Origin: a virus
IMG/VR virus record: IMGVR_UViG_3300034105_001622
Coordinates: 1-21,941 of that record
Direction: 5' to 3' (one strand)
Length of the DNA stretch: 21,941 nt
In this document: positions 337 to 21,566 of the stretch, piece after piece
Numbering within the stretch: position 1 is the first letter of the stretch
Layout: the number at the start of each line of letters is the position of its first letter
Notes under the pieces: model-generated
Seen by the model: only the letters and a program-made list of their open reading frames with translations
What the model was told of the DNA's origin: nothing
Databases searched by the model: none
Position numbers and translations under genes: made by a program

Positions 337-831
337 TTATGCTTTATACAAGCGGTCGAGGTCGGCCTTCAGGTAGTAGGCGTTCATGTGCAGGCCGATG
401 ATACCGCGAGGGGTCTTCCAATACTTCGGCTTCAGCCCTGCCCGGGCTACTCGGCCACGCACGGCCACGTCCGAGACGTTCTTGCTGACCGCGTAATCGA
501 CCAGGCGCACCCAGCCCTTGGGGACTTTGTCGGAGCGGTGGGCGAACATCTGGGCGGCGGCCTCCTTGATGGACTTATACGGAGGGACCGGGCGGTAGAC
601 GTAGGCCATGTGGCACTGGCCTGTGCCGGACTTGAACTGATGGGGCTGGCGTTCGAGCAGGCCACGGCGCTGCAGGTCGAGCGCGCGGGAGGATGCGTTG
701 CGCGTGTGGGCCATATCGAGCTCGACGCGGATCTGGTCCACGGTGAACCAGCCCTTGGGGCAGGGGTAGTCCTTGGGCTCGTTGCTCAGTTCCTTGAGCA
801 GGCGCTGCACGATGGAGTTTGAGTCGGTCAT
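337..831 (-). CDS. Winged-helix/HTH-like putative DNA-binding protein
   Basis: The product is 164 residues. An in-frame ATG exists at 846, but the ATG at 831 overlaps the upstream TGA (828-830) in the ATGA arrangement used by its neighbours, so I prefer 831. Residues about 27-62 (GWFTVDQIRVELDM...SSRALDLQRRGLLERQ) read like a winged-helix domain used to test template or operator DNA. Residues about 104-160 contain a second HTH-like stretch (GWVRLVDYAVSKNVSDVAVRGRV) and then a beta-turn with a helix ending LKADLDRLY, a layout seen in small excisionase- or MerR-like proteins. No family is recognised with certainty. As the last gene of the early operon it could be a regulator. The function is inferred only from the predicted fold. 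Confidence 0.6.
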   Translation of the reverse strand: MTDSNSIVQRLLKELSNEPKDYPCPKGWFTVDQIRVELDMAHTRNASSRALDLQRRGLLERQPHQFKSGTGQCHMAYVYRPVPPYKSIKEAAAQMFAHRSDKVPKGWVRLVDYAVSKNVSDVAVRGRVARAGLKPKYWKTPRGIIGLHMNAYYLKADLDRLYKA

Positions 832-4335: not shown

Positions 4336-4346
4336 GTGCGGGGGAA

Positions 4347-5234
4347 TTACTTGTCGCCACGGATGCGGGGGTGACGGAGGGAGCCATCGGGCGTCTTGCT
4401 CTGGAAGGTGACCTCAAGGAAGGAACCGATGACGGTGTCGCGGTTCGCCCAGATCATGGCGCGCTGCTCGTCGCTGAAGCCACCGCCGACACGCACGAGG
4501 CGACCGTTGTTCTCGACGACGACGTGGCCCATCGTGCCAGCCAGACGGCCTTGGCCTTCATGCACGGAGACCACCGGGCAGTCCTCGGCGTCCACGGCCT
4601 TGACCTTCAACCAGGCGTTGGAGCGTTTGCCCTGCGAGTAGGGAGCGTCGAGGTCCTTGACCATCGCACCCTCGAAGCCCTGCGAGACGAAGCGGCGGAA
4701 GGCATCGTTAGGGGAGATGCCGACGAAGGACTCGACCAAGCGGACGGAGTCGGTGAACTCGAACTTAGCCATCAGAGAGCGGCGCTCGCGGTAAGTTCCG
4801 ACGTCATCGGGCAGGTCGAGCAGCCAGAGGAACGCATCCTTGGCGGGCTCGCTGGAGCGGATGTCGCCGACCGCGTCGTAGAAGTCAGCGCCGGAGACGG
4901 CCTCGCAGTCGAAGGTGTAGACGCCGTGCTTGCCAGCGACGTCAGCGAACCATCCACCGAGGTGCTCGATGGACGGGAGCGGGTTGCCGTTGCGGGTCTT
5001 CATGCCCACGGCGAACGACTGGCGGCAGACTTCGACGATCACGCGGACGCCGTCAATCTTCGGCTCGACCGCGTAGGACTCGGGGAGGATGCCCTTGTAG
5101 GGCTTGGCCAGCATGGCCGGGGAGAGAGGGGCGGCGGCAGGCTTGCGAGCGCCGGCACGGAAGTGCGGCTGGCTTTCAATCATGTTGAAGATGAAAGCGT
5201 AGAGGTCGGCGTTGGGATCGGAGGATGAGCTCAT
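4347..5234 (-). CDS. ATP-dependent DNA ligase
   Basis: The product is 295 residues from the ATG at 5234; the frame extends to 5282 but that part crosses the promoter-like region and palindrome. Nucleotidyltransferase motifs are in order: motif I EPKIDGVR (57-64) with the adenylated Lys59, motif III TFDCE (107-111), motif IV FEGAMVKD (187-194) and motif V AWLKVK (207-212). A C-terminal OB-fold-like segment ends SLRHPRIRG, which resembles motif VI. The enzyme seals 3'-OH/5'-phosphate nicks through ligase-AMP. It is compact, like other phage ligases, with a short alanine-rich N-terminal extension. First gene of the recombination operon, it lies directly after the regulatory gap 5235-5331. Confidence 0.93.
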   Translation of the reverse strand: MSSSSDPNADLYAFIFNMIESQPHFRAGARKPAAAPLSPAMLAKPYKGILPESYAVEPKIDGVRVIVEVCRQSFAVGMKTRNGNPLPSIEHLGGWFADVAGKHGVYTFDCEAVSGADFYDAVGDIRSSEPAKDAFLWLLDLPDDVGTYRERRSLMAKFEFTDSVRLVESFVGISPNDAFRRFVSQGFEGAMVKDLDAPYSQGKRSNAWLKVKAVDAEDCPVVSVHEGQGRLAGTMGHVVVENNGRLVRVGGGFSDEQRAMIWANRDTVIGSFLEVTFQSKTPDGSLRHPRIRGDK

Positions 5235-5253
5235 GTTGTGCGGGATAGGCAAA

Positions 5254-5282
5254 GGTATGCCGCCCGGGCGGGCCGCCGTCAA
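5254..5282 (-). promoter_or_regulatory. Candidate promoter for the ligase-recET operon
   Basis: On the minus strand TTGACG (5282-5277) resembles a -35 box, and 17 bases downstream CATACC (5259-5254) is a weak -10 (3 of 6 consensus bases). Transcription would begin near 5247, leaving a leader of about a dozen bases before the ligase ATG at 5234. The spacer is filled almost entirely by a perfect palindrome (5260-5271). The -35 is a good match and the position between gene blocks is sensible, but the -10 is poor and host sigma preference is unknown. Confidence 0.35.
5260..5271. promoter_or_regulatory. 12-bp perfect palindrome, possible operator
   Basis: CCGCCCGGGCGG reads the same on both strands and falls inside the spacer of the candidate ligase promoter, where a bound repressor would block RNA polymerase. 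In GC-rich DNA such palindromes also arise by chance, and I see no second copy nearby. Confidence 0.3.
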
Positions 5283-5331: not shown

Positions 5332-5658
5332 TCAACCCTGCCGTCTACCCCGCCAGAGCCTGATACCCACCGCCACGGCCACGGCAAGGCATCCAAATGA
5401 CAGGGCCAGCCCTAGTTCGCGGACGGACTGCAGGGCTAGGGTGGCCGAGGACATATTCCGCTCAAGGTCCTTGGAGTCTGACTTCAGCCCCCCGTCCGTC
5501 ACGAGCATGACCAGGGCGTCAGTGTTCTGTAACTGGTCAACGACGTAGCCCGCCGTATAAGCCGTGGTCACTGAGGCCATACCCGCAAAGGTTACCAGCA
5601 GGCAGACCGCCAGCAGGAGGTTGCCCTCACTTGCGCTTGGTTCGCTTGGCTTTTGCAT
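5332..5658 (-). CDS. Small two-transmembrane protein of the lysis/membrane cassette
   Basis: The product is 108 residues from the ATG at 5658; the frame continues to 5700, deep inside the upstream gene. Two hydrophobic helices are evident, about 13-33 (NLLLAVCLLVTFAGMASVTT) and 81-101 (ELGLALSFGCLAVAVAVGIRL), joined by a polar loop of about 45 residues and followed by a basic tail WRGRRQG. Under the positive-inside rule both ends would face the cytoplasm and the loop the periplasm. It overlaps the 3' end of the holin-like gene by 32 bases. It could be a second holin or antiholin, or an inner-membrane accessory; no family is recognised. Confidence 0.65.
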   Translation of the reverse strand: MQKPSEPSASEGNLLLAVCLLVTFAGMASVTTAYTAGYVVDQLQNTDALVMLVTDGGLKSDSKDLERNMSSATLALQSVRELGLALSFGCLAVAVAVGIRLWRGRRQG

Positions 5659-9963: not shown

Positions 9964-10278
9964 TTAGACGGTGACGCTGTCGATGACCTGAACGCGGAAA
10001 ACCTCGGTCCGGGAGATGCCACCGCCAGAAAATACGAATTTGATATCCCATCGGCCTAGGCCCAGCGCCCAGTCGGCGGTCGAGCCCGGGTAGGTGCAGG
10101 TAAACGACAGGCCGTCTCCGGCCTTGGTGATCGTCAGCTCGTAGAGGTTGCCGCACTTGTCCTCCACAGTCGAGGTCAGGGTCGTGGCCAGCAGGTTGGC
10201 AGGGCCGGTAGCGCCAGGGGTCCAGACGAAGGTGCAGGCGAACGTGTTGCCCTGCGATAGAGTGACGGTATCGCTCAT
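9964..10278 (-). CDS. Beta-sandwich hypothetical tail protein
   Basis: The product is 104 residues with a repeating beta pattern: TVTLSQGNTFACTFVW, NLLATTLTSTVED, LYELTITKAG, LSFTCTYPGSTADWALG, WDIKFVFSGG and a last strand EVFRVQVIDSVTV. This layout is common in small immunoglobulin- or baseplate-wedge-like proteins encoded next to phage fibres, and a fibre adaptor is a reasonable guess. It has no catalytic motif. The gene lies 41 bases after the preceding stop, and the gap ends in one copy of the start-site motif (10276-10305). It is followed 3 bases later by the fibre gene. Confidence 0.7.
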   Translation of the reverse strand: MSDTVTLSQGNTFACTFVWTPGATGPANLLATTLTSTVEDKCGNLYELTITKAGDGLSFTCTYPGSTADWALGLGRWDIKFVFSGGGISRTEVFRVQVIDSVTV

Positions 10279-10305
10279 CTTACTTATTGTGCAAATGGTA
10301 GGGTT
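10276..10305 (-). promoter_or_regulatory. Start-site motif, copy D
   Basis: On the minus strand the sequence reads AACCCTACC, five bases ATTTG, CACAATAAGTA, AG and then the ATG of the gene starting at 10278. It differs from copies A-C by one base in the first box and two positions in the second, but keeps the 5-base spacer. It is a divergent copy. Confidence 0.55.
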
Positions 10306-10319
10306 TACCCCGGGCAGGG

Positions 10320-10730
10320 TCAGGTGATGGGGTAGAACAGGCCGATGTCCACGATTGTCGAACTTGTAGGGGTCGAGATGGTCTGATAGTCCGGGGGAAC
10401 GAATGCGTCCGCGTCTATGGTATATAGTTCGGAGGACTCGTTCAGGACGTCCTGCCCGATTAGTTCGGGCTCATACTTTTCATCGAAGTTTGACGCCTGA
10501 AGGTAGAAATCAGTGTCGTCGATGCGGATGGTCAGATCGGCGATAAAGAACGCATCGGTCAACCCTCGCTTCAATAAGCCTTTGCCTTCGATGCTCTTGA
10601 AGGCGACTCCGGTGTCTGGATAGATTTCGTTACTATCACCCCTAAGAGGAGGCGCGTTCTGAATGACGGCGCCCCGGAGCTTGGCCCAAGTATTGATGCC
10701 TACTCCGCTGTCTCCGATGACGAAGGCCAT
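10320..10730 (-). CDS. Hypothetical tail-region protein
   Basis: The product is 136 residues, unrecognised. Segments such as TDAFFIADLTIRIDDTDFYLQASNFD and a Thr/Ser-rich end (STPTSSTIVDIGLFYPIT) suggest a beta-rich structural protein. No signal, membrane helix or enzyme motif is visible. The ATG shares one base with the upstream stop (TGATG at 10728-10732), so it is coupled to the 198-residue gene before it. Position between tape-measure-like gene and fibre suggests a tail tip or baseplate component. Confidence 0.6.
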   Translation of the reverse strand: MAFVIGDSGVGINTWAKLRGAVIQNAPPLRGDSNEIYPDTGVAFKSIEGKGLLKRGLTDAFFIADLTIRIDDTDFYLQASNFDEKYEPELIGQDVLNESSELYTIDADAFVPPDYQTISTPTSSTIVDIGLFYPIT

Positions 10731-11326
10731 CAGATGCGGGCGTAGTAGTACTGCGCCGTCTGGCTGCCGAGCTTGATGCGGTCACCCCAGAGCGAGCCGG
10801 TGACGTACTGGTCGACCGAGTAGACTCCGCTGCCAAGCGCGTTGACCTTAGCCAGGAGGACATAGCCGTAGGTGTCAGTGTCGGCAGGCAGGGCGCCGCC
10901 TGTATTAAACACCGTCGGATACGGGTCGTCTGGATCGTAAGGAGTAATCGGAGCCGGGGCCGGGAAGTTATTAGTCGAAGGGTCTGGGCCTGCTCGCAGA
11001 TATACAAAGCAGGAGGATGTAGACGCAAAGTCGAGCCTCAGTATGTATCCGGCGCTTAGGTCGTCCAAGTACTCAAAGACCTCCTCCGCTTCGTTGTATA
11101 CCTGTGGCATCAGGTTGTTCACAGTGCCAGGGCAAATCTTGTAATTGACCACGGTCGTCTCACCCACCGTGCTCTCGGTGATGCCATGAACCTTAAATGG
11201 CGCACATGGCTCTACGGGCTCTTCCGCCGGGTAAATTGCCCAAGGCGCCCAGGGCTTTTCGATGTTAAGGTTGGACCCTTGGCTTGACGCGCTGAACGTA
11301 TAACCGACTCCTGGCTGGATGCTCAT
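10730..11326 (-). CDS. Hypothetical tail-region protein, acidic
   Basis: The product is 198 residues and is not recognised. It has a Pro-rich acidic stretch (PWAIYPAEEPVEPCAPF), a second one (FPAPAPITPYDPDDPYP) and a tyrosine-rich end QTAQYYYARI. These features and the surrounding order fit a tail tip or baseplate protein with exposed loops. Four cysteines are present with no clear metal-site spacing. It starts 6 bases after the upstream stop. The sequence AAGGG just ahead of the start (AAGGGCACATG) is one of the few SD-like matches in the window. Confidence 0.6.
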   Translation of the reverse strand: MSIQPGVGYTFSASSQGSNLNIEKPWAPWAIYPAEEPVEPCAPFKVHGITESTVGETTVVNYKICPGTVNNLMPQVYNEAEEVFEYLDDLSAGYILRLDFASTSSCFVYLRAGPDPSTNNFPAPAPITPYDPDDPYPTVFNTGGALPADTDTYGYVLLAKVNALGSGVYSVDQYVTGSLWGDRIKLGSQTAQYYYARI

Positions 11327-11332
11327 GTGCCC

Positions 11333-12211
11333 TTAGATGTTTGCGTAGACGTTGGGAGGCCAGCCGTCCTTGGAGTAACGGATTTCGTACATGACCTTGT
11401 AGAGTAATCCGTATTCCTCGACGTTGATTTGAGACAGCAGGTTGCGCTTACCGAAGTCACCAGAGCCAGTCGGAGCCCACGATGGAAGAAGCTGGAAGAC
11501 GCCCCAAGAGTTAGTGGCCGTGGCGCTCGCAAGCAGACCGTAAAGAGCCTGCACGTCAGATATTGAAGTCGTATACATGACGCCAGAGTAGGTCGTCGTG
11601 CGGGCGAGATACTGGGTCTTTCCGTAGAGTTCAGGGACGGACGGATCGACGAAGCCGATGAAGCGACCGCCTTGTCCGGTCTCGAAGCACGCGCCGTTGT
11701 AGCCCTCAGAGGACGGGACTGCTACAGGCTTGCCAAAGGTAGGACCAGGGGCGGCACTGATGACCGTCACAGGAGGCCCGAGGGTCGAGTCGTCGTATGC
11801 GCCGCCGAAGTCGGAAGGCAGGCCAGCGAGAGGACCACCAGTGAAACCTCCAGAAGACTCAAAAAAGTTGGGGTGGCTGGTGATGTTCTCGGCGGTCAGG
11901 CCGTTGGCCGAAGAACAGTTTGCCCGGGTACGGACGCCACTGTTTACAGTCGGGTCGATGCCGACGTAGTCAACCTTCAGGGTAGCAACCCCGAGGTTGT
12001 CCCAAGAGATGCTGCCCTTGTGAGACTTGCAGTAAGTGTAACCACCAGCAGGAAACGCGGTGCCACGCACGAACGGCGCAAACGCCCCGGTGTTTTGGTC
12101 GGACTTGAAAGTCGCGTTGATGACGATCAGGCCGAAGCCGTCCGAGGTGGTAGTCCATCCAGGCTGAAGGATGTCAGCGGTTAGTGCGTTGCCTTTTTCG
12201 ATGCGTGCCAT
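11333..12211 (-). CDS. Hypothetical tail structural protein
   Basis: The product is 292 residues, unrecognised. It is Gly/Ser/Thr/Ala-rich with evenly spaced aromatic residues, typical of beta-rich virion proteins. Examples are GFGLIVINATFKSDQNTGAF near the start and QYLARTTTYSGVMYTTSISD at about 205-225. It ends with YGLLYKVMYEIRYSKDGWPP. No helical membrane or catalytic motifs are seen. It follows the tape-measure-like gene after 9 bases, where siphophages usually encode distal tail and hub proteins, so a distal tail component is likely by position. The leader (ATTTACCGAC before ATG) has no SD. Confidence 0.65.
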   Translation of the reverse strand: MARIEKGNALTADILQPGWTTTSDGFGLIVINATFKSDQNTGAFAPFVRGTAFPAGGYTYCKSHKGSISWDNLGVATLKVDYVGIDPTVNSGVRTRANCSSANGLTAENITSHPNFFESSGGFTGGPLAGLPSDFGGAYDDSTLGPPVTVISAAPGPTFGKPVAVPSSEGYNGACFETGQGGRFIGFVDPSVPELYGKTQYLARTTTYSGVMYTTSISDVQALYGLLASATATNSWGVFQLLPSWAPTGSGDFGKRNLLSQINVEEYGLLYKVMYEIRYSKDGWPPNVYANI

Positions 12212-12220
12212 GTCGGTAAA

Positions 12221-13117
12221 TTACATCTGGCTTCCGTAGCCGTCAATCTGCGGGTTGGCTGTAGCCTGCTTGGTGAAGTCGGGCGGGGTGTAACTGCCAC
12301 CCATTGCGATCTGCTGGAGCAGGGCTGTGTGCTTGCGCTGCTCGTCGAGCTGAGCGGTGACGGCGGCAAGGACCGGGTTGGCTCCCACGCCGACGACATT
12401 GGAGAATCCTTCGGCGCCTGCCATGGCTCCCTTGCCCTGGACATCGAGCGCCTTCTGGGCGTCAGACTTGGTTTCGGCTGCTTGCTTTGCGGCGGCCGCT
12501 TCGGCGGCGGCCTTCTGCTTGGCAATCATCTCAGGCTCAACGGCGACGCGAGCAGCCGAACGGCTTTCGAGGACTCTCTGCATCTCTTCGTCCTTAGAGT
12601 AGTCGTTGACGCCAAAGAACATTGCACCGGCTTTTAGATTTCGACGGAGATAGTCCAAAGGACCTGTAGACTCTTTCAGGTACTGGACCATGGCCGCATC
12701 AGCCTCACCACCAAATCCTGCAAAACCTCCCTCTTTGCCCTGCTCCTCGGCTAGAGCCTGTGCCGCCAGCTTGGCGTTCTGGCGATCTAGTGCGTCCTGA
12801 CGACGGCGTGCCGCTTCTTGGGCGGAGCCGACCGTGCCCTCGCGCATATACTTGTTGCCGCCACCTTCGGCCACGGCCTTGGCGTCCTGCACGGCTTGCC
12901 GGTTCTTCTCGATGGCCGCAGAGATGGAACTCATGGCCGCGTTGAGCAGGACCATCGGGGCCGCGAAGGAAAGGAACAGGTCCTTGCCGAAGTTCTTGAA
13001 GCGGTTCTCGATGCCCTCCATGTTCTTCTCGAGGGTGCTGATGGACTTCTTGACCTTCTCGGTCACCTGCTCGGCATTGGTATCGCCGTTGATGCTGAAC
13101 TTGATGATGTTGCTCAT
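12221..13117 (-). CDS. Short tape-measure-like tail protein
   Basis: The product is 298 residues. Residues about 15-47 form a coiled coil (EQVTEKVKKSISTLEKNMEGIE), followed by a hydrophobic helix (LFLSFAAPMVLLNAAMSSISAAI, about 47-69), a long Ala/Gln/Lys/Glu-rich helical stretch with repeated ARRRQDALDRQNAKLAAQALAEE and a second Ala-rich coiled coil at about 195-235. This composition and the place between the tail-assembly candidate and the distal tail genes are those of a tape measure protein, though far shorter than the usual 600-1500 residues. It overlaps the preceding gene by 4 bases (ATGA). A minor tail or injection protein is the alternative. Confidence 0.6.
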   Translation of the reverse strand: MSNIIKFSINGDTNAEQVTEKVKKSISTLEKNMEGIENRFKNFGKDLFLSFAAPMVLLNAAMSSISAAIEKNRQAVQDAKAVAEGGGNKYMREGTVGSAQEAARRRQDALDRQNAKLAAQALAEEQGKEGGFAGFGGEADAAMVQYLKESTGPLDYLRRNLKAGAMFFGVNDYSKDEEMQRVLESRSAARVAVEPEMIAKQKAAAEAAAAKQAAETKSDAQKALDVQGKGAMAGAEGFSNVVGVGANPVLAAVTAQLDEQRKHTALLQQIAMGGSYTPPDFTKQATANPQIDGYGSQM

Positions 13118-13653
13118 GCTTCGGTCTTTTCGAGTGAGTCGATTAGTTCCTCATCCTCAGATGTGAGGACCTTGAGTTCGGCGCCCTTGCTGATCGCAAA
13201 GGTGGAATTAAGCCAGATGGCTTGGCACTCAGGCATCGTCCATGCGCGCTCCTCCGGGATGCCGTTGGAGATAAGCGACGCGACCACCGTCAAGACCCAC
13301 GGGGTTCCGCTGGTCTCGGAAGCCTTGGCTTTCTTCTCCCAGAACTTAGGCCACGCCTCAATCAGGACGAACTTGGAAAAGCGGTCAATCTGCTCGACGA
13401 AGTAATCCTCGTTTGAGGACATCTTCCCGAGATACCAGGAGTCCTTCAGCGTCAGCTTGTCGAGGCGTTCGCCGGAGCAAATCTTCACGGCCACCAGCAG
13501 ATCAAGCGGACGGATGGGAGCACCCGAACGGAGCAGGGGGCTTTCGGCTGCTTCCAGCTGCACGCGGTGAAGCAGGCAGAACGGGGAAACAAAACGGCCC
13601 AGGAGTTTGGTCAGCCCTGGGTCCGTGAAAGCGGATGTGAACCGCTTATCCAT
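13114..13653 (-). CDS. Putative tail assembly chaperone
   Basis: The product is 179 residues. It is a soluble, mostly helical protein with no transmembrane segment: PIRPLDLLVAVKICSGERLDKLTLKD, YFVEQIDRFSKFVLIEAWPKFWEKK, then ERAWTMPECQAIWLNSTFAISKGAELKVLTSEDEELID near the end. Position between the tail tube and the tape-measure-like gene is where siphophages encode the tail chaperone. The pattern W-x-x-P-x-C-x-A-x-W-L resembles that group only faintly. The frame ends in CTC GAA AAG ACC GAA GCA TGA, overlapping the next gene, and I find no convincing slippery heptamer for the usual frameshift product. The start lies 4 bases after the tail tube stop. Confidence 0.5.
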   Translation of the reverse strand: MDKRFTSAFTDPGLTKLLGRFVSPFCLLHRVQLEAAESPLLRSGAPIRPLDLLVAVKICSGERLDKLTLKDSWYLGKMSSNEDYFVEQIDRFSKFVLIEAWPKFWEKKAKASETSGTPWVLTVVASLISNGIPEERAWTMPECQAIWLNSTFAISKGAELKVLTSEDEELIDSLEKTEA

Positions 13654-13657
13654 GCGG

Positions 13658-14041
13658 TTAAGCGATGGTGACGCCTTCGTAGCCCACGGCAGTCACGGTG
13701 ACTGCGGAGTATCCACGATTAGAGCCCTTGTCGGAAACTTTGGTAACCCAGCCGGAGAAGGCCGTGGAAGCCGCGCCGCTAGTGTAAGCGGAGGCGGTGT
13801 TGACCGTCAGCGTGAAGTTGGCGCCGAGCTGAGGAATGGCCGTCGTTTTTGCGATAATCTCGACGCTCACCTGACAGCGTCTGTCGTCGCCGCGCCAAGC
13901 AACGGTCTTGCCCGTCTCATCGACGATGGTCGCTTCGGCGGTGAACTCGCCGTCGTTGGTGTAGGACTGGACGACCGCGTTGGACACGGTTGCGCCCGTC
14001 AGGCCATAAATTGCGGTTACCCCTTTGACGATTGCAGCCAT
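13658..14041 (-). CDS. Tail tube (major tail) protein candidate
   Basis: The product is 127 residues, almost entirely beta: AAIVKGVTAIYGLTGATVSNAVVQSY, GEFTAEATIVDETGKTVAW, RRCQVSVEIIAKTT, LGANFTLTVNTA, GWVTKVSDKGSNRGYSAVTVTAVGY. This is the pattern of small phage tail tube proteins, with a central helix-less barrel and a central D-x-x-G-x-x-V-A turn. It follows the tail terminator candidate and precedes the chaperone candidate, the canonical siphophage order. As a high-copy virion protein it would need strong translation, and it carries one of the best copies of the start-site motif (14039-14066). The call rests on pattern and order. Confidence 0.7.
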   Translation of the reverse strand: MAAIVKGVTAIYGLTGATVSNAVVQSYTNDGEFTAEATIVDETGKTVAWRGDDRRCQVSVEIIAKTTAIPQLGANFTLTVNTASAYTSGAASTAFSGWVTKVSDKGSNRGYSAVTVTAVGYEGVTIA

Positions 14042-14066
14042 ATACTATTGCGGATAAGGTAAGGTT
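14039..14066 (-). promoter_or_regulatory. Start-site motif, copy C
   Basis: Minus strand: AACCTTACC, five bases TTATC, CGCAATAGTAT, ATG. The first AA belongs to the TAA stop of the upstream gene (14067-14065). Copy B at 17189-17216 has exactly the same arrangement, spacing and stop overlap. The copy introduces the tail tube candidate. No SD sequence is present in the 23-base gap. Confidence 0.75.
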
Positions 14067-14502
14067 AGCCCTCGGGGTTCACGACTACCAGAATGTCGTA
14101 GACTAGGACCGATGCCCAGGAGCGCTCGTTGACCCCCTCATCCTCGGACAGAGGGGTAATGTCGTAGCAGTGGGCGTCGGCCTGCAGGGTGAACACGGCC
14201 TGCAGCGCTTCGAGGTCCTGCATGGCCCCGGCGATGGCGGCCATCCGGGCTCGGTGATCGGCTAGGGTCACGTCGTCGGCAGAGTCGAACAGGGTGACGC
14301 GGACGGAGCAGGAGTAGTTCCCTAGGCCATCCGGGAAGTCGTTAGGCAGGCGGGCGGAGTCGCAGAGCACGATGGCCTTGGGGAGCACGTTCGTGTCGGC
14401 GCTGTCGCCCTTGTAGATGTTCACCCCGGCCAGTTCGGTCTGGGCGGTGAGGTGGGCGGCCACTGCGGCTTCCACGATATGGCGGGCGGATTTGGTTCCC
14501 AT
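14065..14502 (-). CDS. Tail terminator/minor tail protein candidate
   Basis: The product is 145 residues from the ATG at 14502 (MGTKSARHIVEAAVAAHL); the frame to 14625 lies inside the upstream gene and is Ser/Pro-rich. The order is an N-terminal helix (ARHIVEAAVAAHLTAQ), beta strands with LPKAIVLCDS and NYSCSVRVTLFDSAD, a helix DHRARMAAIAGAMQDLEAL and two last strands ending VLVYDILVVVNPEG. Alpha-beta fold, size and place before the tail tube match tail terminator proteins (lambda gpU type), which cap the tail tube and join it to the head. The start lies 4 bases past the upstream stop. Confidence 0.6.
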   Translation of the reverse strand: MGTKSARHIVEAAVAAHLTAQTELAGVNIYKGDSADTNVLPKAIVLCDSARLPNDFPDGLGNYSCSVRVTLFDSADDVTLADHRARMAAIAGAMQDLEALQAVFTLQADAHCYDITPLSEDEGVNERSWASVLVYDILVVVNPEG

Positions 14503-14506
14503 AAAG

Positions 14507-15466
14507 TTATTTGCGGCGCTTGTTGGCCTTTTTGATGGTTGGGTAGAAGTATTCTTGGACGGCGGTTCGCATCTGTTTGACGCGGTTTCTGTAGACGATG
14601 TTCTCGGTCCCGGACTCAGATGCAACGTTGTTGATATTCCCGATCAGGTTCATCACGGTCATCGAGACGAAGCCAGGGCTACGGCTTGCGCTGAACACGC
14701 CCTGAGCTGAACGCTTGTTTGCGTCCACCCACGGGGCGTCATATGTGCCGAAGTTACGCTCGACGCCCTTTTTGGTCACAGGCTTGGGGACCTGCTGCAT
14801 GACCGCCGCCCACCCGGCCTTGACGCGTCCGACCTTGAACTGGCGTTCGGCGATGTAGGCATTGAGCGCGTCCGAGGACTTGGCGAAATATTGAGGCCCG
14901 ATGTATCGGCTGAACTTAGGCCAGCGACCGCCGACCGCACCCTTGGCCTGGTCGTGGATGCCTTTCAGGTCCGTGGCCATGCCGAGCACCTTGTTGCCTC
15001 GGCCCATGATAGAGGCTTTGCTAAGGTAGTTCTTAGCCTTGGCTTGGGCGCGCTGCCAGTCCGTATCCTCCATGATCTTGCGCATGACCGGGGACAGGCT
15101 TTCAATCTTGGACTCCGTCACGTTCTGGTGCAGTTGGAAGAACGTCTGGGTGTCGTTGCCCTTAACCGCGTTGATGACCTGGCGCAGGAAGACCGTCCGT
15201 CCCTTGACGGGTTTGTCTTGGGGAATAAAGATGCGTTTGATATCGTTGCCGGTCTTGTTCATGCCCGCCTTGTGGGCGGCCACGCTCAGGCCACGGCCCC
15301 CACCTTTGGGCATCGGCGGGGTGAAGGTCATGGCGTCCCGGCACATCAGCCTGATCTGCTGGCGGGTGACCATCTCCATGTCGACTTTCAGCTCATCGAC
15401 GAAATGCCTCAGCGTCGCGTTGAAGTCCGCGAGGCTGGCTGGTTCGATGGCCGTCTGCTTGGCCAT
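14507..15466 (-). CDS. Neck/tail-completion-like protein (HK97 gp10-like N-terminus)
   Basis: The product is 319 residues. Residues about 15-60 (FNATLRHFVDELKVDMEMVTRQQIRLMCRDAM, then TFTPP) resemble the start of HK97 gp10-like tail-completion proteins, where a helix bundle precedes a T-P-P turn. The remainder is basic (a K/R-rich end, KKANKRRK) with several helices and MTVMNLIGNINNVASES near the end. It is about twice the size of a typical gp10, so an extra domain is likely; a minor head protein is an alternative. It shares one base with the preceding stop (TAATG at 15464-15468). No catalytic motif was seen. Confidence 0.5.
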   Translation of the reverse strand: MAKQTAIEPASLADFNATLRHFVDELKVDMEMVTRQQIRLMCRDAMTFTPPMPKGGGRGLSVAAHKAGMNKTGNDIKRIFIPQDKPVKGRTVFLRQVINAVKGNDTQTFFQLHQNVTESKIESLSPVMRKIMEDTDWQRAQAKAKNYLSKASIMGRGNKVLGMATDLKGIHDQAKGAVGGRWPKFSRYIGPQYFAKSSDALNAYIAERQFKVGRVKAGWAAVMQQVPKPVTKKGVERNFGTYDAPWVDANKRSAQGVFSASRSPGFVSMTVMNLIGNINNVASESGTENIVYRNRVKQMRTAVQEYFYPTIKKANKRRK

Positions 15467-15837
15467 TACTGGTTGTCGTCGATGCAGGTGAGCTCGATGA
15501 CGGCGCTGGCCTGCTTGTAGGACTGGCCCTTGACCCGGAGGACCTGCCCGTTGACCGTCAGTTTCTTGCCCGGGGCTAGGGCGGCCATAGGGACGCCAGA
15601 GACGATGGTGGCTACCTGACCTCCCACCCGGCCATCAGAAGCCGTCCAAGGGGCCGTAGCGGCGGCGAAACGCACCGTCCACATCTTCTCCTCGGTGAAG
15701 CCCCCCGCGTCGAACTTGGGGGTGTTCATGGGAGAGGACAGGCCAACGAGGAACAGGTTGGCCCCGACCGTAGCCGGGACGCCGATGTCAGCCAGGAGCA
15801 ATTGATAGTCTGCGAGAAAGGTTCCGTATAGGGACAT
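15466..15837 (-). CDS. Head-tail connector protein (gpFII-like candidate)
   Basis: The product is 123 residues. It starts MSLYGTFLADYQLLLADIGVPATV, followed by a beta-rich body: KMWTVRFAAATAPW, GGQVATIVSGVPMAAL and the end GKKLTVNGQVLRVKGQSYKQASAVIELTCIDDNQ. The last segment, strand-NG turn-strand with an arginine/lysine pair and an ELTC end, matches small head-tail joining proteins of the lambda gpFII/HK97 stopper class. It stands directly after the capsid gene, behind the terminator at 15866-15890, with a C-rich leader (TACCCACCCTCTC) and no SD. It would attach to the portal ring and let the tail dock. Confidence 0.6.
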   Translation of the reverse strand: MSLYGTFLADYQLLLADIGVPATVGANLFLVGLSSPMNTPKFDAGGFTEEKMWTVRFAAATAPWTASDGRVGGQVATIVSGVPMAALAPGKKLTVNGQVLRVKGQSYKQASAVIELTCIDDNQ

Positions 15838-15865
15838 GAGAGGGTGGGTAGGGATTTAGGGATAC

Positions 15866-15890
15866 AAAAAAGCCCCCATCGCTGGGGGCT
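15866..15890 (-). terminator. Strong intrinsic terminator after the capsid gene
   Basis: On the minus strand AGCCCCC (15890-15884), loop AGCGAT (15883-15878) and GGGGGCT (15877-15871) form a 7-bp stem, with a six-T run (15871-15866) starting at the last stem base. It starts 20 bases past the capsid stop (15913-15911) and lies before the next start at 15837. It is a textbook intrinsic terminator and would make capsid mRNA more abundant than downstream tail mRNA. Confidence 0.88.
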
Positions 15891-15908
15891 GTTTCAGGAC
15901 TCAGCCCC
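15885..15908 (-). promoter_or_regulatory. Alternative hairpin competing with the terminator
   Basis: On the minus strand GGGGCTG (15908-15902), a 10-base loop and CAGCCCC (15891-15885) make a 7-bp stem. Its second arm is the first arm of the terminator hairpin, so the two structures cannot exist together. This is the geometry of an antiterminator or attenuator. Its first arm lies 2 bases past the capsid stop codon, where a terminating ribosome would cover it. Confidence 0.45.
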
Positions 15909-15910
15909 GA

Positions 15911-16765
15911 TTAGGGGTTGTAGACGCTGGCGATCGTGCCCGTGGTGATGCCCTTGGCCGCGCCGAACATCAGTTCCATGGAACCGATGAGGTTACGGGT
16001 GGAGGCATCGACCCAGACGTTGTACGACACCGAGATGCCGAGACCTTCGATCGGGACGACTTCGCGGAGGAGGAACTGCTGGCCAACGGACTCGAGGTCA
16101 GGGGAAGCAGCGGCCATCGCCACGGCTTCGGCGGAGCAGGCAAATCCGGCCAATTTCGCTTCGGACGGGAAGACGTTGGCGTAGAAGACGCCGCCTTCGA
16201 AACCGTAAGCGCCTTCAGAGAGAGGGAGACCAGTGGTCGCCGTCGGGATGAGCTGGCTGTAGATGCCCGGGTTCACGATGAGGGTCTTGCGACCAGCCTT
16301 CGAAACGCCGGCCCAGAGAGCCTTCAGCTGAGCAGAGCCAGGAGTAACAGCCGAGTCAGCGGCGGTGACCGTGGCGGCGCCGAAGTTGGCGACGGTGATC
16401 GGAGCGGTAGCGGCGGCCCAGATGGAGTCGGCCAGCTTGTCCATGTTGATCTTCAGAATCTTCTCCAGCTTGATACCGTTCTGGATATCAGCGTAGGAGA
16501 GACCGAAGGGCTGGTAGAGGTGGTTCAGCGTCACGGCAGAGGCGCCGAGGGTGCTGTCGCCGATGCTGTTGAAAGCGGTCGGGTTGGTCAGCGTGGTGCT
16601 GCCAGCGGTGGAGAGAGCCACCTGGACGACGTCCTTCGGGCGCTTCACGTCCGAGGAGAAGTCGGAGGCGAAGTTGCGAAGACCGGCGAGGCGGTTCGAG
16701 AGGGAGGTGAGGCTGAGCTCGGCGACGGTGTCGACGATCAGAGCGGCGTTGATGGTGTTAGGCAT
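15911..16765 (-). CDS. Major capsid protein
   Basis: The product is 284 residues. It starts MPNTINAALIVDTVAELSLTSLSNRLAGLRNF, an N-terminal helix as in HK97-fold capsid proteins. It continues with alternating strands and loops (KDVVQVALSTAGSTTLTN, GASAVTLNHLYQPFGLSYADIQNGI), a spine-like helix KINMDKLADSIWAAATAP, GRKTLIVNPGIYSQLIP, and a C-terminal beta part ISVSYNVWVDASTRNLIGSMELMFGAAKG. Composition (rich in A, S, T, V, L; no Cys cluster) and position behind portal, protease and scaffold give the assignment. It should form the icosahedral shell with other copies. The leader has no SD (CTCCTAAGCTACC before ATG). A strong terminator follows. Confidence 0.85.
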   Translation of the reverse strand: MPNTINAALIVDTVAELSLTSLSNRLAGLRNFASDFSSDVKRPKDVVQVALSTAGSTTLTNPTAFNSIGDSTLGASAVTLNHLYQPFGLSYADIQNGIKLEKILKINMDKLADSIWAAATAPITVANFGAATVTAADSAVTPGSAQLKALWAGVSKAGRKTLIVNPGIYSQLIPTATTGLPLSEGAYGFEGGVFYANVFPSEAKLAGFACSAEAVAMAAASPDLESVGQQFLLREVVPIEGLGISVSYNVWVDASTRNLIGSMELMFGAAKGITTGTIASVYNP

Positions 16766-16792
16766 GGTAGCTTAGGAGGGTGGGTTGAAAGA

Positions 16793-17191
16793 TTATTTGG
16801 AGAAGAGGACGGCCTTGTGCTTCTTCAGGAAGGCGCGGCGCTCAGGGCCGGCAGGCATCGAAGCGTACTGCTCGTGGATGGAACCAAGGGCAGCGGCGGC
16901 GACAGGGGCGGCGACAGGAGCAACGCCAGAGCAGGCGAGGATGTTCGCGGCTTCGACGGAGGCGGTGGCCTTGGAGGCTTCGAGCTCGACGATCTTGGCG
17001 TTGGCCTCGGCGAGAGCGGCTTCAAGTTCCTGAACCTTCTGGTCCTTGGCGGCGGCATCAAGCTGAGCCTGGTCGAGTTCGGCAGAGACGTTGACCACGG
17101 AGGCTTCGACCGTCTTGCGGAGATCGTCGCGTTCAGCGGTGAGGGAGACGACAGCGGCCTCGGCGGCCTTGAAGCGTTCTTCGATGGTCAT
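16793..17191 (-). CDS. Coiled-coil scaffold candidate
   Basis: The product is 132 residues. Residues 1-80 are a nearly continuous coiled coil (ERFKAAEAAVVSLTAERDDL and QKVQELEAALAEANAKIVEL). An Ala/Val/Pro linker about 85-105 follows, then a short helical end HEQYASMPAGPERRAFLKKHKAVLFSK with a basic character. A long coiled coil plus a small basic C-terminal helix is what capsid scaffold proteins show, and the gene sits between the capsid protease and the capsid gene, where lambda keeps its scaffold inside gene C. Scaffolds are used in many copies and removed by the protease. The gene has a strong copy of the start-site motif. Confidence 0.7.
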   Translation of the reverse strand: MTIEERFKAAEAAVVSLTAERDDLRKTVEASVVNVSAELDQAQLDAAAKDQKVQELEAALAEANAKIVELEASKATASVEAANILACSGVAPVAAPVAAAALGSIHEQYASMPAGPERRAFLKKHKAVLFSK

Positions 17192-17216
17192 ATACTATTG
17201 CGTAGGGGGTAAGGTT
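17189..17216 (-). promoter_or_regulatory. Start-site motif, copy B
   Basis: Minus strand: AACCTTACC, five bases CCCTA, CGCAATAGTAT, ATG. It is identical to copy C outside the spacer. Its first AA is shared with the TAA of the S49 protease gene (17217-17215). It introduces the scaffold candidate. Confidence 0.75.
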
Positions 17217-18018
17217 AAGCGGACTGCTCAAAGGCCGCGAGGGCCTCGGCGAAGGACGTAGCCAGACCCGTGATGAGGTTCTTGGCGGCGGCTTCACGGC
17301 CAGTGAACACTTGGCCTTCCATGTCTTCGCGGCGGGCCAGCGAGCGCTTGCGGAGGACGGTCTGCTTGAACTCCTCGTGCATGGCCTCGACGGCCTTCTG
17401 CTCCATGTCGCGCATCTCGTCCGTGTAACCTTCTCCTGCGATGTTCGGGGCCTTGTACTTTCCAGCACGGAACACCTCGACCTTGAGCCCCATGTTCTTG
17501 AAGGCTTCGTCATAGGACTCGTCCACGCTGATCACGCCGATGGAGCCCACCATGGCGGAAGGGCTGGCCAGAACGTAGTCGCTCTGAGAGCCGGTGTAGT
17601 ATGCGCCAGAGGCCATCAGCTTCTTGGCGTAGGACATGGTCGGCAGCGGGATGCTGGCAATCTTGTCGGCGAGTTCGGGCGTGCCGACGACAGTCCCACC
17701 AGGGGAGTCGATTTCAAAGGCGATGCGCTGCACCGCAGGGTTGGCGAGCATCTCGTCGATGGCCTCGCCGATTTCAATCATGTCGGACGCGCCGGTCATC
17801 TTCTCGAACTTGGTCAGGCCGACGCCTAGGAAACCCTGGAGCGGGATGACCGCCGTGCCGCCCTGCGTGACGTAGGGCTTGGCGACAGGGTTGAAGAACA
17901 TATCCAGAACGCTGTCCACGACGCCGTACTTCTCGGCGTACTTCATGTGGTTCGCGGCCTTGATAGGGTCGCAGAGAAGTGGCTCTCTTCCAGAGAGTCC
18001 GTTGATTAAGCATTTCAC
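17215..18018 (-). CDS. S49-family capsid maturation protease
   Basis: The product is 267 residues. The S49 (SppA/lambda gpC-like) fold is clear: GTAVIPLQGFLG (54-65), IAFEIDSPGGTVVGTPELAD (99-118) with the oxyanion-region SPGG, SYAKKLMASGAYYTGSQSDY (129-148) with nucleophile Ser137, VGSIGVISVD (157-166), and RAGKYKAP (184-191) with Lys187 as the general base. It should cut the scaffold and process head proteins during capsid maturation. The start is a GTG at 18018 that overlaps the portal stop (TGA 18017-18015) as GTGA, matching the local coupling style; the next in-frame ATG (Met25) would leave a long untranslated gap. Confidence 0.92.
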   Translation of the reverse strand: MKCLINGLSGREPLLCDPIKAANHMKYAEKYGVVDSVLDMFFNPVAKPYVTQGGTAVIPLQGFLGVGLTKFEKMTGASDMIEIGEAIDEMLANPAVQRIAFEIDSPGGTVVGTPELADKIASIPLPTMSYAKKLMASGAYYTGSQSDYVLASPSAMVGSIGVISVDESYDEAFKNMGLKVEVFRAGKYKAPNIAGEGYTDEMRDMEQKAVEAMHEEFKQTVLRKRSLARREDMEGQVFTGREAAAKNLITGLATSFAEALAAFEQSA

Positions 18019-19487
18019 GGGTTAGAGGGTTCGGGGGGAGGAGGGAGGTCGAGGTTGTCAGCGACCGCGTCAGGCGTCTGGCTCGAAGCCTGACCCTGCT
18101 GCAGCCAGTTGAAGGCCGACTGGTAAAGCATCCACAGCGGGAGGTTCCGCTCCTTGGACTTCTGCACGAGCTTCTCCATCTCGACGGCGCGCTGCTCGAG
18201 CACCTCGTCGTAGGTCATGCCCTTCTTGCCGAGGATGGCCTGAGCCGTGGTCAGACCCATCTGCAGGTCGGCACGGTCTTGTGAGGCTTCGCGGCCAGCG
18301 TCCACGGTGATGTCTCGGGGCGTGATCCAAGACTTGCGGTTGAAGTCCGGGTCGTCGGGCAACTTGCCCTTGGCGATGGCGTCGGCGATGACGTAGTCGT
18401 ACACCCGGTCAAGGTTGTCGATGAGGATAGACTGCCACTTGGCCGCCCATCGGGAGACCTTGCTGGCCACCAGACGGACCGAGGCCCCGCCAATCTTGGA
18501 CGGGTCAACCTGGTACTCGTAGGGGAGCAGGCGCACGATGTCGCGCTCGATGGCGGTCATCATCCCAATCCACGCCGGAGAGGGGCGGTTGTTTTGGACC
18601 TGACTAAAGTCCTCGTTCTGATCTACGACCAGCACCTTGCCGCCCATCTGGCTGGCCATCTTCTCGCAGGAATTGTAGTCGCCGGAGAACTTGGAGGCCG
18701 GGTCGTCTTGAAGCACGCCACCCTGCTTCTTGAGCAGCATAACATGGTCACTTGCCGCGCGGCACGCAGCCTTCTCGAGTTCGTAGATTTCCAACTGGTC
18801 CTGAACGCTCAGGAGGCTGGACTGCAGGACGGGGTAGCCGCGAACTGCAGACGGGCGCTCGAACTCCATGACCTGGAGCATGGACTGCGCCGGCACGTAT
18901 CGGTCGCGGGTCTCGCCATCAGTGTAGACATTCCAGCCCAAGATTTCGCCGTAGGTTCCGAGGTAGGCTCCGTCCACGTTGTTCGGGTCGAACTTGGCGG
19001 CAGGTGAACCGATGCGGTGACTCTCGAGGATTTGAAGTTTCGGGACCCCGGTCTTCGGGTCGTTGGTCAGGATGCCGAACGAGTCGCCGTCGATGAGCGC
19101 GCCCGACATCCACATGGCCTGAATCTGGCCGAGGTTGTAGCGGTTCGTCAGGTCGCAACGCACAGCCCAGTCGCGGAAGTAGTTCTGGTGCGCCACGGCC
19201 ACCTTGGGGTCGCGGGCGTTCGACTGCACGACGAGACCGTCGCCGACGGAGACCAGGACGGCTTCATCGACGCACTGCTTGTAGATCGGGCTGTTGCGGA
19301 CGGCCCAGCGGGACTTGGCCACCATGGCGATGCGCGTGCCGGACGTGACCTCCTTGCGCTGGTCGCTGATTGCTCCGACGAACAGCATACGCCGCGAGCC
19401 CGACTGGGTCGTGCTGGCGAACTGCGAGTAGGAGGCGGAGGCCCCCTTCTTCTCAGTCTTGGTCTTAGGGGTGGTCTTCTTTCGCAT
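18015..19487 (-). CDS. Portal protein, lambda gpB type
   Basis: The product is 490 residues. After a basic start (KKTTPKTKTEKKG), the sequence shows the lambda-type portal pattern: SRWAVRNSPIYKQCVDEAVLVSVGDGL (about 59-85), NYFRDWAVRCD, MWMSGALIDGDSFGIL (about 125-140), PKLQILESHRIGSP, then VMEFERPSAVRGYPVLQSSL (about 205-224), ASDHVMLLKK (about 243-252) and SWITPRDITVDAGREASQDRADLQMGLTT (about 383-411). The portal dodecamer is the DNA gate at one capsid vertex and binds the terminase. The start shares one base with the connector's stop (TGATG at 19485-19489). The C-terminal tail is Pro-rich. Confidence 0.93.
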   Translation of the reverse strand: MRKKTTPKTKTEKKGASASYSQFASTTQSGSRRMLFVGAISDQRKEVTSGTRIAMVAKSRWAVRNSPIYKQCVDEAVLVSVGDGLVVQSNARDPKVAVAHQNYFRDWAVRCDLTNRYNLGQIQAMWMSGALIDGDSFGILTNDPKTGVPKLQILESHRIGSPAAKFDPNNVDGAYLGTYGEILGWNVYTDGETRDRYVPAQSMLQVMEFERPSAVRGYPVLQSSLLSVQDQLEIYELEKAACRAASDHVMLLKKQGGVLQDDPASKFSGDYNSCEKMASQMGGKVLVVDQNEDFSQVQNNRPSPAWIGMMTAIERDIVRLLPYEYQVDPSKIGGASVRLVASKVSRWAAKWQSILIDNLDRVYDYVIADAIAKGKLPDDPDFNRKSWITPRDITVDAGREASQDRADLQMGLTTAQAILGKKGMTYDEVLEQRAVEMEKLVQKSKERNLPLWMLYQSAFNWLQQGQASSQTPDAVADNLDLPPPPEPSNP

Positions 19488-19735
19488 CAGAGGTCAACCC
19501 GGGAGTCCCAAGTAATCTGGACGGAGGTATGAGCGCCGCCATACTTCTTCGGGTCGATACGGGACAAAGCGTAGTTAATCTCCTGCAGGCGCTGCGCGGG
19601 AGGCATCCCGAACTGCTTGTTTACGGACGTGCCAGAGTCAGAGTAGGACGTCACGGCTTTGCCGAGGTCCCCTAGTGCCTCCTGCTTGTATTGCAGCAGC
19701 ACGTCTTCCTGTACGCCTACGTAGATGCCGAGCAT
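19487..19735 (-). CDS. gpW-like head-tail connector protein
   Basis: The product is 82 residues. It has two helices around a Ser/Gly-rich turn: YVGVQEDVLLQYKQEALGDLGKAV, then SYSDSGTSVNKQFGMPPAQRLQEINYALSRIDPKKYG. Location between large terminase and portal, size, and the helix-S-x-S-x-G turn-helix pattern agree with lambda gpW-type connector proteins, which plug the portal after DNA packaging. The similarity is not strong, so a decoration or terminase-associated protein remains possible. It starts 4 bases after the large terminase stop, and the start is part of motif copy A. Confidence 0.55.
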   Translation of the reverse strand: MLGIYVGVQEDVLLQYKQEALGDLGKAVTSYSDSGTSVNKQFGMPPAQRLQEINYALSRIDPKKYGGAHTSVQITWDSRVDL

Positions 19736-19761
19736 ATACTTATTGCGGGGCGGGTAAGGTT
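19733..19761 (-). promoter_or_regulatory. Start-site motif, copy A (within the terminase C-terminal codons)
   Basis: Minus strand: AACCTTACC, five bases CGCCC, CGCAATAAGTAT, ATG. It has one extra A compared with copies B and C. Most of it lies inside the last codons of the large terminase (stop TAA 19742-19740), which restricts its coding sequence to Q-T-L-P-A-P-Q. It precedes the gpW-like gene. Confidence 0.7.
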
Positions 19762-21566
19762 TGCACCTCGTCTCGTCCGATCAGACCCCAGCGGGCCGCG
19801 ATGAGCATCCCGAGAAGCTCGCAGTCCAAGCCGTGGTTATGCTTCACGCCCTGGCGCAACCGCCAGATTGCCTTGCCGCCCGGCTCCCTTACGCGGGTCT
19901 CGCTGTTAAGTTGTTCCACGTAGGCAGGGTCGGCATCACGGGCGAACGTGAAGACCTTCCTCGCTTTCTGGCCGTGGAATAAATCCTTGCCCGACAGATT
20001 GGACCAGACCACCAGCGCAGTCGGCGTGCGTACGCCCGGGACGTGGATCGCGGTCGGCGTCGCGTAGAACCGACGCACCGTCTCGCCCGACTTCGTCTTG
20101 ACGTTGAAGTACTCCTGGCCCGAGCCCTTGGCACAGTACCAGCCACGGACGGCGCACTGCTTGTAGACCTCCTGCGTGGAGTTGCCGTCACCCGAGTCCA
20201 CCATCACGAGCTGAGGATGCACCCCGTGCTTGGCCGCCAGAGCGTCGAGGCCCGACCAATCCGTCAGCCCGTCCACGCTCGGAACCTTGCCGAAGTGCAC
20301 CAGACGGCTGTGGCCCGTTCGTGCCCACTGCCTGACCACCGTCCAGAAGTGGTCGCCCTGACAGTCGATGGATAGGGTCTGGAACTTGACCGAGCCTTCA
20401 GGTGCTCCGGCCATGTCTACAATCTGACCGCGCGGACCGATGGCGGCCACCGCGTCCCAAGGGTCGGCCATCGCATAGTCCGATGACTCCGTCGAGACGA
20501 CGAGGCTCCCGGTGTCGTCACTCCAGGGCAGAGCCAAGAACTGCTGCTTGAATACCTGACGGGGAATATTGTCGCCCATCTCTGCGGACTCCTTCGCCTT
20601 GATCATGTCCACCGCAAGCGACCCCCAGCTCGTAGACGCGAGGGCGTTGACGTGCAGTCCGACGTAGCCTGCCTTCTCGGACTTGGACGTGGCCTCGAAC
20701 CCGGCGCCGCGCTCGACCTCGTTGCAGATTGTGCGGACCTCGTCGTTGTCCTCCATGCGGTGACGGCACTTCGAGCACTCGTAGGTCGTGCCCTGTTGCA
20801 CGGCCTCAAGGTCCCAGCCGTCTATCATCTTAGCGCCCTCCGGGAATCTGATGTAGTCCCACAGCCAGGGCTGGCGATGGTTGCACGACGGACACACGAA
20901 CATCCACTCCCGCTGGTCGGTCATCAAGTAATACTTCCAGAACTCCGCACCCTGTCCCTCGACGTTCCCGGGCTGGCTCTCGTAGATTGCCTTGCTCGCG
21001 AACGCCGCCGCCTTCAGTCGGCTCATGCTCATGGCCAGCGCGCCGTTCGGCCACTGCCAGCACTCCGAGCCCAAGACGTAGCGGACGTGCAAGGACTGCA
21101 GGTGCTTCTCCGTCGAGGCCGAGCGGTTGTGAATCAGCGACCCGTCCGCGAACCGAAGCGTGCCCGACTTGTCGTTGTCCTCCCCGGACATCTGGCCTCG
21201 GATATCCGAGACCTGGTCGAACAGCGGGCGCAGCTCGTTCAGCGTGAACGCCTTCGCCTTGTCCTGAGAGTCGAGGAAGATGGCCATCGAAGCACGGCGG
21301 TTTGCCATCAGGTAAGCCGCGTTCAGTTTCAAGGTCAGCGTCTTCCCGCAGCCGATTGCCCAGGGCATGAACAGCCTGCTGGTCGTCGGCGCGTTGAAGA
21401 TGCGGACGGCCTCACCGATCCACGGCCACCGCTTCGGGTTGTACCCGCCGTCGAACACGCCAGCCGGAATCTTCTTCACGTTCTCCTTCAGGTAAGCGAC
21501 AGGGTCGCTCAAGGCCGACGGCCTGACCACGGCCAAGCCCTCCTCGAAGAGCTCGTCTGCGTTCAC
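19740..21566 (-). CDS. Large terminase subunit, GpA type
   Basis: The product is 608 residues. The ATPase domain has Walker A IGCGKTL (71-77), a motor strand RYVLGSECW (162-170) in the Walker B region with Glu168, and YESQPGN (195-201). Two CxxC pairs (C225/C228 and C264/C267) mark the zinc-knuckle insertion seen in GpA-type terminases. The nuclease domain has SIDCQGDHFW (399-408) with Asp401, MVDSGDGN (455-462) with Asp457, and HGLDCE (578-583) with Asp581. The protein cuts concatemeric DNA and pumps it into the procapsid through the portal. The start is a GTG at 21566 that overlaps the upstream stop (TGA 21565-21563). No other start would preserve coupling. Confidence 0.95.
   Translation of the reverse strand: MNADELFEEGLAVVRPSALSDPVAYLKENVKKIPAGVFDGGYNPKRWPWIGEAVRIFNAPTTSRLFMPWAIGCGKTLTLKLNAAYLMANRRASMAIFLDSQDKAKAFTLNELRPLFDQVSDIRGQMSGEDNDKSGTLRFADGSLIHNRSASTEKHLQSLHVRYVLGSECWQWPNGALAMSMSRLKAAAFASKAIYESQPGNVEGQGAEFWKYYLMTDQREWMFVCPSCNHRQPWLWDYIRFPEGAKMIDGWDLEAVQQGTTYECSKCRHRMEDNDEVRTICNEVERGAGFEATSKSEKAGYVGLHVNALASTSWGSLAVDMIKAKESAEMGDNIPRQVFKQQFLALPWSDDTGSLVVSTESSDYAMADPWDAVAAIGPRGQIVDMAGAPEGSVKFQTLSIDCQGDHFWTVVRQWARTGHSRLVHFGKVPSVDGLTDWSGLDALAAKHGVHPQLVMVDSGDGNSTQEVYKQCAVRGWYCAKGSGQEYFNVKTKSGETVRRFYATPTAIHVPGVRTPTALVVWSNLSGKDLFHGQKARKVFTFARDADPAYVEQLNSETRVREPGGKAIWRLRQGVKHNHGLDCELLGMLIAARWGLIGRDEVQTLPAPQ

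Follow-up and report, generated by a model that had tools for sequence, protein, structure and literature searches.

A two-part DNA element, AACC[CT]TAC-N8-CAATA-(3-8 nt)-ATG, heads four genes of the virion blocks in the phage sequence studied here: those for a gpW-like protein, a scaffold candidate, a tail-tube candidate and the tail-region protein p104. The distance from AACC to CAATA is constant at 16. We infer that the element may be a late promoter/operator that acts on the DNA and gives near-leaderless mRNA, a reading to which we assign a probability of about 0.5.

The element and the genes it heads

The source is a virus record of 21.9 kb (the window, meaning the whole stretch of DNA analyzed). 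Its minus strand carries nearly all of the genes, which are ordered TerS-TerL-gpW-like-portal-S49-scaffold-capsid-tail-fibre-...-RecT. Pfam matched the portal, the S49 peptidase, the ligase and RecT. The features on which the argument rests are as follows.

19740..21566, minus strand: TerL (terminase large subunit); its final codons lie beneath motif copy 1
19733..19761, minus strand: motif copy 1 with the gpW-like ATG; variant AACCTTACCCGCCCCGCAATAAGTATATG; motif kept at this start in 39 distinct upstream sequences
19487..19735, minus strand: gpW-like head-tail connector, 82 aa, assigned by position only
17189..17216, minus strand: motif copy 2 with the scaffold-candidate ATG; 42 distinct upstream sequences in relatives
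16793..17191, minus strand: scaffold candidate, coiled-coil, the gene ahead of the capsid gene; assigned by position only
15911..16765, minus strand: major capsid protein, 26% identity to P8625 gp11
15871..15890, minus strand: intrinsic terminator AGCCCCCAGCGATGGGGGCT plus TTTTTTG, directly after the capsid gene; conserved in 49/49
14039..14066, minus strand: motif copy 3 with the tail-tube-candidate ATG; 42 distinct upstream sequences in relatives
13658..14041, minus strand: tail-tube candidate; module swapped among phage lineages, where crossovers fall at the motif
10276..10305, minus strand: motif copy 4 with the p104 ATG; variant AACCCTACCATTTGCACAATAAGTAAGATG (AACCCTAC...CACAATAAGTAAG)
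9964..10278, minus strand: p104, tail-region protein of 104 aa that opens the fibre block; weak match to PHROG 1084

The capsid assignment is by way of gp11 of phage P8625, annotated as containing P22 coat protein; Pfam and PHROG searches with the 82-aa gpW-like protein returned no confident match.

All four copies had been proposed in a first-pass annotation, and each was confirmed at its position on the minus strand. An exact 28-mer, AACCTTACC-N5-CGCAATAGTATATG, occupies both 17189-17216 and 14039-14066. With the right part shortened, as AACCTTACC-N5-CGCAATA, the pattern matches three times in the window, on the coding strand only (reversed control, 0), and the fourth copy reads AACCCTAC-N8-CAATAAGTAAG-ATG. 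The CG preceding CAATA is often AA, and one more base is tolerated after CAATA. The initial description, of a 9-mer and an 11-mer separated by 5 nt, is therefore replaced by an invariant core of AACC-Y-TAC, N8 and CAATA.

The element runs into the preceding genes. Copy 1 overlaps the 3' end of TerL, such that the TAA or TAG of CAATAA or CAATAG is the TerL stop codon; in copies 2 and 3, AACC shares bases with the stop codon TAA, in the former case that of the S49 peptidase gene and in the latter that of the preceding gene. Under copy 1, TerL uses TTA for leucine, a codon that makes up 1.2% of its leucine codons, so that the DNA itself is kept and not the peptide alone. Beyond the ATG, the relatives differ by whole codons and by synonymous changes (M-LGI, M-ALGI, M-CALGI; M-TIEE, M-ALTIEE), which marks this ATG as the true start.

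Lack of a Shine-Dalgarno sequence had been taken as a special feature of the motif genes; it is shared by 26 of the 27 genes in the window, TerL being the only one with such a sequence. Likewise, the supposed weaker relative of the motif at the ligase gene has neither block, and the relatives keep a different, single-copy element there. This start-proximal element, which relatives keep, reads CATACCTTNGCNTATCCCGCACAAC-ATG at the ligase (5235-5262, minus strand) and CCCGCAC-ATG at the exonuclease (4336-4350), and is possibly a separate signal of early or middle genes.

Conservation in relatives and change between two lineages

Relatives were collected from IMG/VR by a TerL search, which gave 80 loci, and by a DNA pattern, which gave 104 stretches. 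Nearly all pattern matches in the viral collection precede a gpW-like, scaffold or tube gene, and a few lie on unrelated contigs by chance. At 157 of 161 distinct AACCNNACN8CAATA sites an ATG follows 3-8 nt past CAATA; the remaining 4 are on contigs outside the family. Among 16 whole records, comprising relatives and distant outgroups, ten had four matches, one had three, one had two and four had none (two genomes of a sister lineage, B, and two distant outgroups). All matches in a record were on one strand, and the reversed control gave 0. The occurrence of the element is thus far beyond chance, and when start regions of one relative were searched without bias for gapped words, it ranked first. 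The first-pass annotation had suggested a phage-specific signal tied to start codons, to be given up if the motif were as common elsewhere or if close relatives lacked the copies. Within the family, matches fall only at starts and close relatives retain the copies, and that part of the suggestion stands.

In 130 distinct sites of lineage A, to which the window belongs, the AACC, TAC and CAATA columns are invariant and the spacer and flanks are near random; because the collection pattern fixes most core columns, this table is informative for the spacer and flanks and is not proof of the core. Neither AGGAG nor a conserved -35 block upstream appeared in the column counts.

The same sites exist in lineage B (L054-L060, L074, G008 and G011) with another left half. 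Here the left block reads AACCCGAA at the gpW, scaffold, tube and p104 genes, in place of the AACCYTAC of lineage A, and the right block is the same in both. In scans for the right block by itself, or combined with AACC, no left block other than these two appeared in family members, apart from AACCTTCC at two scaffold sites of lineage A. The spacing of 16 is kept in every lineage although the spacer bases change. Among the 88 contigs that carry at least two sites, a set from which overlapping contigs were removed only roughly, 73 were all A, 15 were all B and none was mixed.

Class changes were nevertheless mapped on the protein trees: at least three and most likely six for the tube protein, two for the scaffold and one for gpW. 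They are explained by breakpoints at the motif. In L116, lineage-A DNA extends as far as the ATG and lineage-B DNA lies beyond; L234 shows the reverse. Base by base, such crossovers at the motif or ATG were seen in L116 (site 1682), L234 (site 3797) and L225 (site 4099). With breakpoints at this position, the left half remains with the resident genome; the absence of mixed contigs is therefore no proof of selection, since a crossover in the common right half alone would retain the resident left half. The original switch, made at four separate sites, calls for a common reader, and the left half is probably recognized by a factor that acts in trans.

These crossovers also bear on whether the sequence is kept only for recombination of structural modules at gene borders, with no regulatory role. 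Breakpoints in L116 and L234 and six class changes on the tube tree are what such an exchange boundary would produce. However, a patch of homology has no need of a left half changed at four places in one lineage, and the motif stands at only four among many gene borders; we consider this reading unlikely. If it is a control site, the element also serves as the place of crossover in module exchange, which is directly visible in L116 and L234.

The phage group is freshwater and widespread. A TerL 85% identical to that of the window occurs in a metagenome-assembled genome (MAG) of Opitutia (Verrucomicrobiota) and one 81% identical in an Aurantimicrobium-named MAG, both on short phage contigs that are possibly mis-binned. 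The nearest named phages by TerL include P8625 and an Akkermansia phage; against the phage records of named isolates, identity was only ~21%, with no close isolate in that collection. Taken together, we regard Verrucomicrobiota as the likely host from sequence comparison. Verrucomicrobiota hosts do not use the element: a scan of 289 genomes gave only scattered single matches, no more than the reversed control, save for a phage contig in one MAG. A terminal overlap of 127 bp in one relative (G005; L173/L174) suggests that it is probably a complete genome of ~35.1 kb from this uncultured group.

Candidate reader and possible mode of action

A candidate for the reader is encoded just ahead of TerS and TerL, beyond the window. 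This protein, p154, has a C-terminal helix-turn-helix that appears similar to sigma region 4. Over residues 1-114, its identity is 73% between lineages A and B and 80% within lineage A; over the helix-turn-helix, it is 34% between the lineages and 70% within A. The B-type domain is found in all lineage-B genomes with p154 (L058, G008 and G011) and the A-type in lineage-A genomes, a correlation that reflects few independent events. Profile matches to sigma-type families were weak, though they recurred among the members: Pfam Sigma70_r4 matched 4 of 13 members (best E 0.033), NCBIfam TIGR02937 matched 5 of 13 (best E 9e-4, below the curated cut-off for the member shown) and PHROG 3512, "sigma factor," gave a best E of 0.034. 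A mediocre AlphaFold model (pLDDT 79, pTM 0.48) had no significant match in a fold search, the best being AlpA (7xyb, E 0.34, probability 0.60). p154 is a candidate only, because p117 and p172, proteins of DNA-binding type, also diverge between the lineages. The p172-type protein (337-831, minus strand) is DNA-binding-like by sequence with no Pfam match, well kept in lineage A and only 30% identical in G008, and is another possible regulator. No p154 was found in host genomes, a search in which the genomes included no positive control. In G002 (L171/L172), two p154 copies, 90% identical, lie at opposite ends of one 35.2-kb contig, either as tandem paralogues or as two strains assembled together.

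The arrangement of the late region provides further evidence. Motif genes stand first in their blocks (gpW-portal-protease, scaffold-capsid, tube-tail and p104-fibre), and among the start regions examined the motif is absent ahead of the capsid gene. The terminator behind the capsid gene, AGCCCCCAGCGATGGGGGCTTTTTTG, hardly varies in stem, loop or T-run across all 49 distinct sequences found upstream of the gene that follows. With this conserved terminator, scaffold and capsid together look like one transcription unit with the motif at its head. Terminators between blocks are few.

On the promoter/operator reading, a two-part site would be read jointly by host RNA polymerase and a factor of the phage. 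Phage-specific recognition would lie in the left half, to which p154 would probably bind, and the right half (CAATA-R-GTA), common to both lineages, would probably contact a shared partner. Transcripts would start at the ATG or a few bases from it, leaving the first gene of each block almost leaderless. A fixed spacing of 16 despite spacer change is as expected of a rigid DNA-binding complex. The first-pass annotation had left the choice among an initiation signal, an RNA-binding or processing site and a promoter. Between transcription and translation, the evidence leans to transcription because of the concerted half-site change, the position at the heads of blocks, the capsid terminator without a capsid motif and a -35-like TTGACA in phage P8625 (see below). 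Some observations stand against a promoter. If transcripts start at or before the ATG, the commonest copies place CAATA at -9 to -5, nearer than suits the -10 box of a sigma-70 promoter. The hexamer also lacks the final T, no -35 box is conserved upstream, and no promoter-like site was predicted on the coding strand. Moreover, each copy in the family has an ATG at a distance of 3-8 nt, a link that a translational element would account for just as well.

Such an element would act on the mRNA, where an RNA-binding protein or ribosome contact at AACCYUAC...CAAUA would turn on or repress the first gene and the downstream genes would follow by coupling. The constant distance to the ATG, CAATA in the Shine-Dalgarno position of a phage that otherwise lacks Shine-Dalgarno sequences, the strand specificity and the poor sigma-70 spacing all suit it, and the start-associated sequences (SASs) of Cluster K mycobacteriophages have been proposed to act in translation (PMC3203893). 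However, the capsid gene, presumably the most translated, has no motif; predicted RNA structure at the four copies was no better than in shuffled sequence (z -0.89 to +1.06); and two blocks that always lie 16 nt apart are easier to reconcile with DNA than with a flexible RNA. In P8625, the counterpart is dyad-symmetric, with arms that pair in some copies only and with TTGACA on its 5' side. Control at translation is plausible but less likely than a promoter.

Cleavage of a late polycistronic mRNA at the motif by a nuclease, yielding near-leaderless and separately stable segments, would fit the gene-junction location, the strand specificity, the short leaders and the few inter-block terminators. 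It is improbable given that no nuclease was linked to the element in this analysis and that a change of the left block alone would need a nuclease with switched specificity. We give still less credence to a loading or pausing site at which p154, as an antiterminator of the Q/AlpA type, would allow readthrough of the capsid-gene terminator. AlpA is the best fold match of p154, which is encoded just before the terminase genes, and a conserved terminator does lie within the late region; but the AlpA match is below significance, and four copies tied to ATGs are found rather than one or two.

Returning to the promoter/operator reading, we tentatively suggest, at odds well short of even, a new kind of late promoter. 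Two half-sites would be fused to the ATG and give near-leaderless virion mRNAs; the reader would be sigma-region-4-like, its domain and the four half-sites would have switched together, and modules would be swapped at the element with the half-site kept. Lineages A and B form a natural swap pair, in which either left half can be set against either p154. The element is a possible first handle on late gene control, and perhaps on leaderless initiation, in Verrucomicrobiota phages, in which gene-start signals are little studied.

Comparison with known systems

The element was compared with known bacterial signals. No sigma-70 promoter (TTGACA/TATAAT 16-18 nt apart, start ~7 nt downstream) was predicted on the coding strand at the copies. 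For the sigma-54 pattern GG-N10-GC, the left block lacks GG, and the GC before AATA is AC in many copies. The GGAG/GAGG core of a Shine-Dalgarno sequence, 5-12 nt before the start, is absent at all motif genes. The sense strand of AACCTTACC presumably coincides with a conserved stretch of 16S rRNA; pairing between the two was given no weight, as lineage B loses the match. A T7-like polymerase promoter was rejected, since no such polymerase was recognized in the relatives inspected and the left block is too far upstream. Late promoters that depend on phage factors include the T4 MotA middle and gp55 late promoters and those served by RinA/ArpU activators or Q/AlpA antiterminators. Such systems have few promoters, placed before virion blocks, and are read by a DNA-binding protein of the phage, whose gene often directly precedes those of the terminase. 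None of them matches the window element in sequence or geometry.

Phage P8625, an isolate whose host is a Verrucomicrobia subdivision-4 strain, has the same head gene order as the window. In its genome, GTAT-N11-ATAC occurs 7 times (0.4 expected), and 5 of the 7 copies sit 2-7 nt ahead of an ATG, including a re-assigned start of gp13, which probably lies at the ATG after 9652 and not at the annotated TTG 9620. Dyads of the GTATCC-N7-GGATAC type were seen before virion genes of P8625 (L210) at 5426, 9634, 10750, 11267, 15573, 17515 and 8089. Four copies have TTGACA or TTGCCA 8-9 nt on their 5' side, about -36 from the ATG, and the gp13 copy directly follows a terminator-like hairpin. Like the window element, this one has two parts at a constant spacing and stands 2-7 nt ahead of an ATG, here of gpW-like, tail and fibre genes; a terminator-like hairpin likewise lies past the capsid gene. 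It differs in having another sequence, dyad symmetry and TTGACA upstream. No p154 homologue was detected in P8625; gp40, with two tandem helix-turn-helix-like repeats, could be the reader of its dyads. The word "promoter" does not occur in the text of the P8625 paper. The motif was found by inspecting start regions and was not ranked by generic gapped-word discovery, probably because it is palindromic. The same gapped-word search found no comparable motif in the more distant contigs L078 and L083 or in Akkermansia phage Moulinsart.

The nearest described phenomenon is the SAS of Cluster K mycobacteriophages with its linked upstream element, the ESAS. The SAS, GGGATAGGAGCCC, has a Shine-Dalgarno core and occurs in 11-19 copies before non-structural genes of actinobacterial phages; the ESAS consensus, like the left half of the window element, differs in concert between groups, in its case subclusters. 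ESASs were first read as sites for DNA-binding proteins, then as promoters of SigA-like type that contain an inverted repeat, the function being unproven (PMC3203893; PMC11373665; PMC12699233). Like the window element, these are short, specific to a phage clade and to one strand, almost missing from hosts and located 3-9 bp before start codons, and stop codons of preceding genes may fall inside them. Proximity to the start codon in one orientation is thus shared (157/161 within 3-8 nt). However, the SAS consensus, with its AGGAG pairing to 16S rRNA, is absent from the 130 sites, and all four window copies precede virion-block genes, outside the non-structural genome half to which SASs are restricted. 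The window element also differs in copy number (4 per genome) and in having two half-sites at fixed spacing within one unit. It resembles the SAS and is not a member, because the defining sequence and gene-class features fail. Start-associated sequences have been known since 2011 in that one mycobacteriophage cluster, with function unproven (PMC3203893); the present element adds an independent example, from phages that are probably of another phylum. Its signal is cleaner, with four copies at a constant spacing, natural variants of specificity and a candidate for the reader.
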